Shown here piece by piece: positions 10,254 to 13,161 of a DNA stretch of 32,370 nt. The position numbers and the translations under genes were made by a program. The stretch is from Oscillospiraceae bacterium (lineage in GTDB: Bacteria > Bacillota > Clostridia > Oscillospirales > Ruminococcaceae). The stretch's first letter is position 1, and every line of letters starts with the position of its first letter. The DNA lies in contig JAAVID010000106.1 of assembly GCA_014799395.1 (NCBI GenBank), positions 1-32,370 of the forward strand. The letters run 5' to 3'. Below the pieces are notes generated by a model. The model was not told where the DNA came from and did not search any database. It worked only from the letters and a program-made list of their open reading frames with translations.

Positions 10254-10315
10254 TTACCTCCAAATTAAGTTTTGGAAGTATTATTTCACATTTTAGGGAA
10301 TATATGCTTGCCGGC

Positions 10316-10344
10316 TTGACATTCGGAATATTTTATCGTACAAT
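10316..10344 (+). promoter_or_regulatory. Promoter of the sigma factor operon
   Basis: TTGACA (10316-10321), 17 nt, TACAAT (10339-10344); TATAAT overlaps at 10344-10349 but at poor spacing. AGAGGTG ribosome site at 10351-10357, 7 nt before the ATG. A housekeeping-type promoter suggests basal expression; a second, self-recognised promoter is not evident. Confidence 0.75.
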
Positions 10345-10364
10345 ATAATCAGAGGTGACAAAAA

Positions 10365-10907
10365 ATGTTTGATACGACATTTGCGGTTATTGAAAACGAA
10401 AAACAGCGCAGCGAGTTAGCGGAGTTTTATTCCGAGCACAAAAGCAGGCTCTATGCGATCGCGTTGTCAAAATTACATAATAAAGAGGAAGCGGAGGACG
10501 CGGTTCAGGAGGTATTTTCGCAGATCGCGGACAAGCCCGAAAAGTTCTTTGAAGTACCTCCCGATTATCGACTTGCATACGCCGATATAATGCTGAAAAA
10601 CATTGCGGTTGATATGTTCAAAAGAAACAATAAAGTTCACGTTGAAGAGCTGAGCGAAGATATTGAAGACGGCGTATCTCCGGAAGATAGTTTGTTTGAC
10701 GGTATCGGGCATAGTGAGATGATCGAGTTTATAAATAACCTGCCGACGATGAGGAGAAACGTTTTAATGCTCCGATGCTTTTTTGACATACCGATAACGG
10801 AGATCGCTCAAAGGCTGAAAATAGCTCCCGCGACCGCAAGCAAGCATTTAACGCTGGCTCGGAAAGCGGTAAGGGATTTTATTGCCGAAAGGAAAAACCG
10901 CTTATGA
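10365..10907 (+). CDS. ECF-type RNA polymerase sigma factor
   Basis: 180 residues with two sigma-70 regions. Region 2 is near residues 20-85 (FYSEHKSRLYAIALSKL, then KEEAEDAVQEVFSQI, the -10 recognition helix area). Region 4 is near residues 120-175 (INNLPTMRRNVLMLRCFFDIPITEIAQRL, then KIAPATASKHLTLARKAV, a helix-turn-helix). Regions 1 and 3 are lacking, as in extracytoplasmic-function sigmas. The next gene starts inside the stop codon (ATGA) and encodes a single-pass membrane protein, the usual arrangement of sigma and anti-sigma. It stands alone on the plus strand among minus-strand housekeeping genes. The target promoters and the inducing signal are unknown. Confidence 0.93.
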   Translation: MFDTTFAVIENEKQRSELAEFYSEHKSRLYAIALSKLHNKEEAEDAVQEVFSQIADKPEKFFEVPPDYRLAYADIMLKNIAVDMFKRNNKVHVEELSEDIEDGVSPEDSLFDGIGHSEMIEFINNLPTMRRNVLMLRCFFDIPITEIAQRLKIAPATASKHLTLARKAVRDFIAERKNRL

Positions 10908-11980
10908 ACGAAAGTGTTTTTAAAGAAATTCTCGGCGAAGCGCTCAAATGCGGATTAGAGGAGTTTGACAACGCTCCCGAGCATAAATTCTCGCTGAAAC
11001 ACCGCCTTGCTATGAAACGCGTTTTCGCGAAATATGACCGAAATGTACGCAAATTGAAAGAGACAACGGCAGAAAATGCCGCAATTGAGTATGAGCCGAG
11101 ATTAACTTTCAGAAAGCGTATAATCCTTGTGACGGTCATTATAATTTTTATGGTTTTTCTTGCAGGGTGCGTTGTGCTTGCTACGGATATATATGTACGG
11201 GATATGTATGTAAAAACTCATCAGACTACGCTTTTAGCGTCAAAAAAGGATTTTTACGGCTCAATACAGCCGTGGATGAACACAGATTACTTACAGGTTC
11301 CCGTAGCGGGAGACCTGGCGGAGCTTATGGAAAGCATTGAGACGGGGATAGCCGACGGCAGACCGCTCGGGGATATACTTCAGGACAGGATCGACAGATA
11401 CGCCAAAGAATATATGGCAGCGTCGGGAGAAGAGGGCATTGCCGCGGTCGGAAGCAATCGCGCGGATATTATTCTGATAGACCCCGAGACGGGGAAAGTT
11501 ATCGACTCGCACCCGAAAGGCGGCTGCATTATTCTGTCAAAGAAAATTCAGAATATGGATTACGCTACGGCAAAATCCCAAGCGGACGACCTCGCGACAT
11601 TTATAAGATATACGGTGTTAAAAAAAGAATCCGACGACCCCGAAAGGGTCAGCGCCCTGCTCTCGGAGTTAAAGGAAAAGCAGTCGGAATACGATACCTC
11701 CCGGTTTTTGCCGATATTCTATTCGGGCGGAAAGCTGGTAGATAAGAACCTGGAGTACTGGGATAATTTGCTTGGAGAGGACGGATTAAATTGGGATATT
11801 CGCCACAAAGACAAGTACGAAAAAGACGCCGATGAACTGCTGGACATTATAAACGAGTGCTATTCTTCCGTCAGCGCGGACGACGATACGCTTAACGCAA
11901 TGGAAAAGATAATGTCCGAAAGTACCGCGGAAAAATTGAAAGCCGAGATTTGTCGGAGGTTGGACTTGCCGCAAAATTAA
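10904..11980 (+). CDS. Single-pass membrane protein, probable anti-sigma factor with unrecognised extracytoplasmic domain
   Basis: 358 residues. The N-terminal cytoplasmic part (1-71) is basic and helical (FKEILGEALKCGLEEFDN, HKFSLKHRLAMKRVF), a style I associate with clostridial sigma-linked membrane proteins. RKR at 70-72 precedes one hydrophobic segment at about 73-94, giving a predicted N-in/C-out topology. The 260-residue C-terminal domain is acidic and mixed alpha/beta, with VPVAGDL, DILQDRIDRYAKE, DPETGKVIDS, KSQADDLATF and KQSEYDTSRFLPIF; I know no family for it. The next gene repeats this domain. The start overlaps the sigma stop. The anti-sigma role is inferred from position and topology only; a sensor without anti-sigma activity is the alternative. 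Confidence 0.82.
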   Translation: MNESVFKEILGEALKCGLEEFDNAPEHKFSLKHRLAMKRVFAKYDRNVRKLKETTAENAAIEYEPRLTFRKRIILVTVIIIFMVFLAGCVVLATDIYVRDMYVKTHQTTLLASKKDFYGSIQPWMNTDYLQVPVAGDLAELMESIETGIADGRPLGDILQDRIDRYAKEYMAASGEEGIAAVGSNRADIILIDPETGKVIDSHPKGGCIILSKKIQNMDYATAKSQADDLATFIRYTVLKKESDDPERVSALLSELKEKQSEYDTSRFLPIFYSGGKLVDKNLEYWDNLLGEDGLNWDIRHKDKYEKDADELLDIINECYSSVSADDDTLNAMEKIMSESTAEKLKAEICRRLDLPQN

Positions 11981-12115
11981 CAAAGATAACGACGATTATA
12001 TCCCCGGGATATTTGCCGATTCAGCCAAAAATCATACGATAAATTTGTCTAAGTTAAACAAAATTTAAAAATTTTTGATAATCGATTACCAAAAACGCAA
12101 TAAAAAACAGAAGTA

Positions 12116-12121
12116 TATAAT
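12116..12121 (+). promoter_or_regulatory. Possible -10 element before the soluble paralogue
   Basis: TATAAT about 40 nt before the start at 12162. No TTGACA-like box lies at 17 nt, so it may be a weak promoter, need an activator, or use another sigma. The 181-nt gap (11981-12161) holds no gene and no clear terminator. Confidence 0.35.
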
Positions 12122-12161
12122 AGAGGGATCATCACAGCAAGCATTTATCGGGAGGTTTATT

Positions 12162-13091
12162 ATGAATGGTATAAGCACAAATTGGGGAACCGAAAGGTTT
12201 AATTTCAGAAAAAGCGGCGCGGTTTCCCGTGAAGAAAGTGGAGCGTTTGCGCCCTTGATATCGGAATCTCGGGAATCGTCCGAAAGCGGTGAAACAAAAT
12301 ATGATTTTTCGGATATGTATGTAAGAACTCACCAGACTTCTCTTGAAGAAGCTGTAAAAGACCTTTATGCCGTATCAAGACCGTGGGGGAATCAGAAATA
12401 TATGCAGGTTCCCGTAGCTGGAGATTTGAAAGAGCTTATGGAAAGCATTGAGAAAGGGCTTGCCGACGGCAAACCGCTAAGAGACATACTTCAGGACAGG
12501 ATAGACAGATATGCTAAAGAACATATGGCAGAGTACGGCGAAGAGGGCGTTGTTTCGGTTGGATCTGATGTAGCTGATCTAATTTTAGTCGACCCGGATA
12601 CGGGGAGAGTGATCGACTCAGACCCGAAAGGACGCTGTATTGTTCTGTCAAATAAAATTCAGGACATGGATTACGCAACAGTCAAATCCCAAGCGGACGA
12701 CCTTGCAACATTTTTAAAATACGCGGTGTTTAAAAAAGAAAACGACGATCCCGAAAAAGTAAATGCTCTGATCTCTGAGTTAAAGGATAAACAGTCGGAA
12801 TACGATACATCTCGGTTTTTGCCGATTTTCTCTATGCATGGGGAAGATGGAGCAAAGAATGTGGCGTATTGGCTGAACTTGCTTGGAGATGATTGGGGCG
12901 GCTGTCTTGGCGATGAGGAGTGTGAAGAAATAGCCGACGAGCTGATGAGAATTATAGCCGAACGCTATTCCTCCGACAACAGCACTGACGATGACCTGCT
13001 CGACGAAATGAATAAGATGAAGTTATCAAGCGCCGCGGCAAAAATTGAAAGGCGCAGTTTAGCGGAACTCGGGGTTGCGGTAATGGAGTGA
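12162..13091 (+). CDS. Soluble paralogue of the preceding extracytoplasmic domain
   Basis: 309 residues from the ATG at 12162, which has GGGAGG at 12150-12155; the longer frame has no ribosome site. From DMYVRTHQT to SRFLPIF it aligns without gaps to the upstream protein for about 173 residues at roughly 73% identity by eye. After that the two diverge, although both keep AYW/EYW-LLG, an acidic helix and DDDLLDEMN/DDDTLNAME. The first 50 residues (MNGISTNWGTERFNF...) are unrelated to the neighbour, polar, rich in serine and glutamate. They contain neither signal peptide nor transmembrane segment. Function unknown. The pair looks like a recent tandem duplication in which one copy lost, or never gained, the membrane and sigma-contact parts. 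Confidence 0.85.
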   Translation: MNGISTNWGTERFNFRKSGAVSREESGAFAPLISESRESSESGETKYDFSDMYVRTHQTSLEEAVKDLYAVSRPWGNQKYMQVPVAGDLKELMESIEKGLADGKPLRDILQDRIDRYAKEHMAEYGEEGVVSVGSDVADLILVDPDTGRVIDSDPKGRCIVLSNKIQDMDYATVKSQADDLATFLKYAVFKKENDDPEKVNALISELKDKQSEYDTSRFLPIFSMHGEDGAKNVAYWLNLLGDDWGGCLGDEECEEIADELMRIIAERYSSDNSTDDDLLDEMNKMKLSSAAAKIERRSLAELGVAVME

Positions 13092-13123
13092 TAAAAGGCT
13101 ATTGGTTATAAAAAACCGTTAAT

Positions 13124-13161
13124 AAAAAATCACGGCAGTGCTCATGCATTGCCGTGATTTT
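13124..13161. terminator. Bidirectional terminator between convergent genes
   Basis: Stem AAAATCACGGCA (13126-13137) with TGCCGTGATTTT (13150-13161), extended into the loop by GTGC/GCAT pairing. It is followed by TTTTTT on the minus strand, for pheT, and by TTTTGTT on the plus strand, for the sigma locus. The pheT stop lies immediately beside it. Confidence 0.9.

Follow-up and report, generated by a model that had tools for sequence, protein, structure and literature searches.

How did a membrane protein encoded beside a sigma factor come to carry the same domain as the product of the following gene, and what might the two copies do together? This question is raised by a cassette of three plus-strand open reading frames (ORFs) in an Oscillospiraceae bacterium, encoding an extracytoplasmic function (ECF) sigma factor, a membrane protein and a third protein, which is located between eno and pheT, both on the minus strand (gene names from reading the sequence). 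The window analyzed was the whole 32-kb contig (JAAVID010000106.1, 32,370 nucleotides) of a source genome of 2.76 Mb, and the domain shared by the second and third proteins is called D1 here. We proposed, with a probability of about 0.6, that the cassette is a self-contained transmembrane sigma switch in which the same domain acts as sensor and as target. To our knowledge, the origin of the sensors of membrane anti-sigma factors and the stimuli of many ECF systems of gut Clostridia are largely open questions.

A Sigma Factor, a Putative Anti-Sigma Factor and Two Copies of D1

In the window sigma factor, Sigma70 region 2 (E 1.7e-7) and region 4 (E 5.2e-9) scored over the Pfam cut-offs, and the superfamily TIGR02937 (sigma70-ECF) scored above the NCBIfam cut-off; among the best 25 of 80 NCBIfam matches there was no equivalog or subfamily above cut-off and no SigI-type family, SigI lying outside the ECF group. 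The sigma gene overlaps that of the membrane protein by 4 bp. A sequence-only reading of this DNA had described a sigma factor, a coupled single-pass membrane protein and a third gene with the same domain, and the three ORFs, their overlap and the Pfam regions bore this out. The two D1 copies were 63% identical over 249 aa (E 1e-107); over the 173 ungapped residues for which that reading had given 73%, 126 were identical (72.8%), and the four motifs that it had listed (VPVAGDL, DRIDRYAKE, KSQADDLATF, and SRFLPIF) occur in both copies.

In the membrane protein (P0002), residues 1-92 form the sigma-coupled module, with a transmembrane segment at about residues 72-92 (read from the sequence), and D1 occupies residues 100-358. 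Because the first 92 residues recur beside sigma genes across the genus, we infer that the membrane protein is an anti-sigma factor for the adjoining sigma factor; in addition, the positive charges before the transmembrane segment suggest that the fused D1 is located outside the membrane. The known anti-sigma domains zf-HC2, RsgI_N and RseA_N had no Pfam match in this protein, for which PepSY_TM (E 0.18) was the sole Pfam match at E up to 1, and DUF4367 (PF14285) had no Pfam match in P0002 or in the third protein (P0003). The transmembrane segment of many anti-sigma factors ends in GC or GW (window, about 11160-11175); the GC is lipobox-like and far from the N-terminus. Lipoprotein processing at the GC (LAGC, LVGC) is not argued here, many sister proteins having GW instead.

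D1 as the Probable Body of a Standalone Protein Family

D1 gave weak matches only against Pfam, NCBIfam and PHROGs, and the earlier statement that it matches no recognized family held, above that level, for these databases and for PDB sequences. The best weak family match, NCBIfam Eex_IncN (E 0.0034), was below cut-off and lay over the transmembrane segment of P0002; among PDB sequences, a chain named inactivate TOD4 (E 0.00035, with no stretch passing on its own) and AcrIF14 (E 0.28) were taken as chance matches. The sequence-only reading had also suggested structure prediction; AlphaFold2 on 8 sequences gave a mean predicted local distance difference test score (pLDDT) of 37 and no usable D1 fold. 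No D1 relative was found in phage or plasmid records, or among viral contigs, in which 58 pattern matches included none; a phage or plasmid origin is therefore unsupported.

With P0003 as query, D1 was found in 8 of 100 genomes: that of the window, six more from its genus, and G057 from another genus of the family. Wider searches found it in 3 of 396 family genomes and, at E up to 0.01, in 5 of 394 order genomes, two of the latter five being above E 0.005 and the copy of G784 having two stops. The sequence-only reading had named homologues without a linked sigma factor as one refutation of its view, and such homologues exist: the stretches of 11-12 kb that hold the standalone D1 genes of G042, G034 and G057, and a standalone relative of 302 aa on contig C3 in the window genome, contain no relative of the window sigma. 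A truncated third-gene copy (113 aa; L027 1712-2053) on contig C86 of the same genome, directly behind ftsZ (read from the sequence), had none in 8 kb and is likely a decayed insertion. Elsewhere, a sigma gene of weak similarity (25%) lies on the other strand about 1.2 kb from the D1 gene of G036, the D1 gene of G033 is interrupted by stops on a 4.2-kb contig, and that of G025 comes after a sigma/anti-sigma pair whose anti-sigma factor has DUF4367. G057 carries two tandem standalone D1-type genes (L024 4852-6232), the first of which seems to retain the protein ends only.

Of the 43 genomes of the genus, only G014 and that of the window showed D1 fused to an anti-sigma factor. Because standalone copies occur without a linked sigma gene, D1 appears at home in the standalone protein. 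On these sequence comparisons, D1 is not specialized as a sensor of sigma systems; it forms the body of a family of standalone proteins and became attached to an anti-sigma factor, a fusion that looks derived. Thus, the earlier description of D1 as sensor-like stands in that it occupies the place of DUF4367 in sister anti-sigma factors, and falls in that it is not dedicated to sigma systems.

Exchange of Outer Domains across the Genus

The N-terminal module matched 40 places in 23 of the 43 genus genomes (any match, 26 genomes). We studied 40 ORFs, comprising 39 of these places and the more distant pair of G025; one place with five in-frame stops (G016:C5) was left out. A sigma ORF adjoins 39 of the 40 anti-sigma ORFs, the exception (L091) beginning at a contig end, and in L100 the sigma is split over two ORFs. 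The outer domains were DUF4367-like in 34 ORFs (confirmed by Pfam in 4 of 4 tested sisters, the other 30 being judged by motif), D1 in two, and a further domain, D2, in four. D2 had no Pfam match and constitutes a second family without a Pfam model; that D1 and D2 form one family was rejected at shallow alignment depth (hhalign probability 0.2%). In the PMC literature searched, no paper with the term DUF4367 was found, and no wider absence is claimed.

A same-strand downstream gene with the matching domain was present behind all six D1 or D2 anti-sigma factors, compared with 1 of 34 DUF4367-like ones, where the match was the anti-sigma factor of the next pair (comparison of the four nearest called genes; L104 had none). 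Two downstream D2 genes follow the anti-sigma gene in the C116 cassette of G014, the nearer one being absent from the initial gene calls. Contig C33 of G014 carries, adjoining its D1 cassette in back-to-back orientation, a second, divergent cassette (L018, 8905-11167) made up of a sigma gene, a D2 anti-sigma gene and a standalone D2 gene.

Distances between sigma factors covaried with those between the anti-sigma N-termini (Mantel r 0.765, 0 of 5000 permutations, 38 pairs), part of which is expected from shared cassette phylogeny; L091 and L100 were dropped from this test and from the tree. In the tree, the two D1 proteins were sister to a DUF4367 pair, L071 (99/93), and D1 therefore most likely replaced an ancestral DUF4367 sensor. 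D2 was probably captured by an anti-sigma factor separately from D1, in one or several gains. D1 and D2 occurred together more often than chance would predict, in 5 genomes, of 7 and 10 in the 43 (p 0.004), which may reflect relatedness of the genomes.

A Promoter-Like Element before the Third Gene

Downstream of the anti-sigma stop codon and ahead of the third gene, a block near AAAACAGATGTATATAATAGAGGG was observed across cassettes; in the window, the stretch 12060-12165 holds the block GTATATAATAG and contains a promoter-like element that the sequence-only reading had missed inside the cassette. A score of at least 18 of 28 was reached by the element in 31 of the 40 cassettes, from which its seed was also taken, compared with 14 of 800 mononucleotide shuffles, and all six D1/D2 cassettes were among the positive ones (scores 19-25). 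At the same score it preceded only 1 of 39 sigma genes, and sigma autoregulation through the element was thus rejected. Upstream of nine other D1 genes, including the one behind the DUF4367 pair of G025, it was absent (0 of 9, scores 14-16).

In 14 chosen genomes, 16 matches were found at up to 3 mismatches, and the 9 with at most 2 mismatches were all in cassettes. The window genome had two of the matches at up to 3 mismatches, at 12105 and in a DUF4367 cassette on contig C65. The conserved columns extend further upstream and over GAGGG, and element and sigma divergence covaried (r 0.706, 0 of 5000 permutations, 30 cassettes), again with a contribution expected from shared phylogeny. From the position of the element across the genus, its near-uniqueness and its covariation with sigma, we infer that the cassette sigma has essentially one target, the third gene.

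Proposed Switch and Alternative Explanations

In the switch that we propose, the sigma-A-type promoter would express the ECF sigma factor together with the single-pass anti-sigma factor, which would hold the sigma. D1 outside the membrane would sense something, and stimulation would release the sigma via regulated proteolysis or a conformational change; the released sigma would then transcribe the third gene from the promoter-like element. The third-gene product, a D1 domain with its own N-terminal leader, would be exported and meet the ligand or partner of the sensor copy, or the sensor itself, so that a feedback loop would be closed. The sensor itself would have arisen by capture of the domain of the standalone D1 gene, displacing DUF4367.

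The two D1 copies were 90% identical in DNA in G014 and 74% in the window, with synonymous divergence of 0.21 and 0.87, respectively, compared with 0.58-0.73 between the genomes; the G014 copies also share a 57-residue block without a difference, and conversion or re-duplication inside G014 is likely. Such values would suit an ordinary ECF sigma/anti-sigma pair in which the shared domain is a by-product of tandem duplication and the copies do not act together: neighboring tandem copies recombine easily, the G014 copies are closer to each other than the copies are between genomes, and decayed D1 copies exist (the truncated one on C86 and the one with stops in G033). We consider this explanation rather improbable, in that two non-aligning domains both show the fusion together with a downstream gene for the same domain (6 of 6) and the fused D1 is subject to purifying selection. 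In the comparison of the window with G014, the ratio of nonsynonymous to synonymous divergence (dN/dS) was about 0.23 for standalone D1, 0.36 for fused D1 and 0.10 for sigma, and all three genes are therefore under purifying selection. The lowest dN/dS being that of sigma, and the anti-sigma N-terminal module being present in 23 of 43 genus genomes, conservation is not confined to D1 as the sequence-only reading had held.

Two further alternatives concern the third gene. Its protein, instead of being an exported output, could stay in the cytoplasm and bind the sigma or the membrane protein directly, as an anti-anti-sigma factor or a decoy; we hold this to be very unlikely. The fused D1 is predicted outside, hence out of reach for a cytoplasmic D1, D1 genes occur without a linked sigma gene, and genes in third position frequently specify exported proteins (of 31 in DUF4367 cassettes, 23 are Sec-like, some being membrane proteins), set against the lack of a Sec-like N-terminus in the third protein and its location next to the sigma/anti-sigma pair. 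The element could also serve sigma-A as a promoter, or act in RNA as a leader signal, leaving the third gene outside control by the cassette sigma; this is an unlikely reading, though one with some basis in the standard -10 box TATAAT that the element contains and in the GAGG...CCTC repeats that follow it in many cassettes. However, no TTGACA-like hexamer lies 16-18 nt before TATAAT in the window, the conserved columns extend further upstream and over GAGGG as described, matches with at most 2 mismatches are confined to cassettes, and the element covaries with sigma.

Several observations nevertheless weigh against the switch. The seed of the element came from the very cassettes in which it was counted, 4 of the 7 matches with exactly 3 mismatches lie outside cassettes (three inside), and the 16 matches at up to 3 mismatches compare with 8 for the reversed pattern used as a control. 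Both Mantel tests share the cassette phylogeny, which would produce a degree of covariation even in the absence of contact. Anti-sigma factors still of DUF4367 type are followed by a D1 or D2 gene in G025 and G001, so that sensor and target may differ. D1 is sparsely distributed (8 of 100 genomes, counting that of the window) and gave no usable AlphaFold2 fold, and the standalone D1 protein has no Sec signal, so that the two copies may occupy different compartments.

Third-Gene Products and a Candidate Export Route

The standalone D1 protein of the window showed no Sec-like N-terminus. In DUF4367 cassettes, a same-strand gene follows within 450 bp in 31 of 34 cases, and 23 of these 31 third genes had a Sec-like start (four more narrowly failed) by a rough criterion under which certain membrane proteins qualify as well; in D1/D2 cassettes the count was 0 of 5, the nearer D2 gene of the C116 cassette being left out. 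The flagellar export gate recognizes a motif of the form FxxxPhi, and the window third protein contains FAPLI at residues 29-33, which fits it. Among standalone D1/D2 N-termini, FxxxPhi was present at residues 20-46 in 21 of 23, compared with 102 of 309 control ORFs, and a stricter form in 19 of 23, compared with 26 of 309; the p-value of 3e-8 is overstated, since the D1/D2 members are related and the rows are not independent. The 23 were drawn from 27 N-termini, leaving out L158 (a near copy), L160 and L174 (start unclear) and the broken G033 gene. FlhA occurred in 12 of 12 genus genomes with D1 or D2 and in 25 of 31 others (p 0.16), as well as in G057 and G784, and the window genome has a flagellar export cluster (genes named from reading the sequence; FlhA by Pfam). 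Flagellar-type export of the standalone D1/D2 proteins is thus put forward as a lead only; if true, the switch would be monitoring proteins exported by a route other than Sec.

DUF4367 cassettes repeatedly had, as their third gene, one for a protein of some 146 aa whose Sec-like start often precedes SPAYEIA; it is located about 100 bp after the anti-sigma gene in L071, L078, L082, L083 and others. A KLKEDFG-like C-terminal tail was present on 11 of 16 distinct standalone D2 ORFs and missing from all four D2 fusions, and it is resembled by KLKADF in the D1 protein encoded on C3.

Comparison with Known Systems

Among the closest systems are the DUF4367 cassettes of the genus itself, which share the sigma type, the anti-sigma N-terminal module, the intergenic element and the third-gene position, but have DUF4367 as outer domain, often a Sec-like third product, and no match between sensor and product. 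RsgI6/Xyn10D of Clostridium thermocellum was the nearest documented precedent found: the GH10 module of RsgI6 is reported to share 57% identity with Xyn10D over 381 aa, and sigmaI6 recognized the predicted xyn10D promoter as well as that of its own gene and many others (PMC4711584). The likeness lies in a membrane anti-sigma factor with exchangeable outer modules, the RsgI6 sensor being a paralogue of a regulon product (PMC4711584). In contrast to the sigmaI6 system (PMC4711584), the element here marks the adjoining gene and not the sigma gene, the sigma is an ECF factor, and D1 has no family; moreover, the window anti-sigma factor had no RsgI_N match in Pfam, the arrangement is used again with a second domain, D2, and there is apparently a single adjacent target.

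Class I anti-sigma factors (ASDI) likewise adjoin their ECF factor and usually have the sigma-binding part N-terminal to other domains, and their associated domains are reported to be typically well conserved within an ECF group (PMC7406223), whereas here the outer domain was swapped within one tight group; the likeness drawn here is one of arrangement. RsiV is an anti-sigma receptor for an outside protein, lysozyme, with SigV released by proteolysis (PMC4183432, PMC5014341), and resembles the proposed sensor in this mode of action. Early flagellar export substrates carry export signals in the N-terminal region, with the FlgD motif at residues 36-40 (PMC8983047), comparable to FxxxPhi at residues 23-42 of the D1/D2 proteins, although D1 and D2 are not recognizable rod or hook proteins.

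Taken together, the cassettes present an arrangement in which the relative of the sensor is the adjoining candidate target gene, and this arrangement exists with two non-aligning domains, each representing a protein family without a Pfam model. Related bacteria thus seem to have built a sensor-copies-target design more than once with unrelated domains. A broader proposal, which we regard as doubtful, combines recurrent capture of the target-gene domain as anti-sigma sensor (one sigma, one promoter, one target) with output of D1/D2 through the flagellar export gate; the general rule that a sensor is captured from its target is open to testing through the D1 and D2 cassettes.

The Locus and Its Insertion Site

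The features of the cassette are collected in table 1. The bounding promoter and terminator of the sequence-only reading were recovered; the scan totals were close to those of shuffles (promoters, 7 compared with 5.7; terminators, 5 compared with 3.6), and both calls are therefore based on where the features lie and how good they are. For the third gene, the most probable start is the ATG behind GGGAGG, for which an upstream TTG at 12075 was set aside. In a Pfam scan of the surroundings, 17 of 20 further minus-strand ORFs had a family match, mostly housekeeping; plus-strand ORFs beyond the cassette were listed only.

Table 1. Features of the D1 Cassette with Their Positions in the Window
Feature	Position	Strand	Basis or context
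Sigma-A-type promoter, TTGACA-17 nt-TACAAT	10316..10344	+	Upstream of sigma operon; motif scan
ECF-type sigma factor, 180 aa	10365..10907	+	Pfam Sigma70_r2 and r4_2, NCBIfam sigma70-ECF superfamily, above cut-off
Putative membrane anti-sigma factor, 358 aa	10904..11980	+	Recurrent N-terminal module, covariation with sigma
D1 domain copy 1, fused, presumed sensor	11201..11977	+	Alignment; position held by DUF4367 in sister proteins
Promoter-like element AAACAGAAGTATATAATAGAGGG, putative sigma target site	12105..12127	+	Upstream of third gene; conserved across genus
Standalone D1 protein, 309 aa	12162..13091	+	Alignment with fused D1 copy
D1 domain copy 2, standalone	12312..13088	+	Alignment
Terminator-like stem, 16 pairs	13126..13161	+	Between cassette and convergent pheT

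Among 29 relatives with an eno locus, pheT precedes eno with a gap of 81 to 1206 bp and no cassette in 10, including G021 and G020 (enolase identity 96-97%). The other 19 loci comprise 7 cut short and 12 with a full 1.5-kb flank but no pheT, and the pheT-eno adjacency is therefore not universal. Window positions 10278-10351 are kept in the cassette-free G021 (85.5% over 76 bp), where the promoter hexamers are TTGACA and TACAAA, compared with TTGACA and TACAAT in the window. This comparison is most simply read as insertion of the cassette downstream of a promoter that already existed, with cassette loss in the relatives as a less simple alternative. In G014, the same D1 cassette has a different neighborhood. 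The pheT-eno spot carries other small ORFs in L127, L128 and L133, with gaps of about 0.8-1.2 kb, and may be an insertion hot spot.

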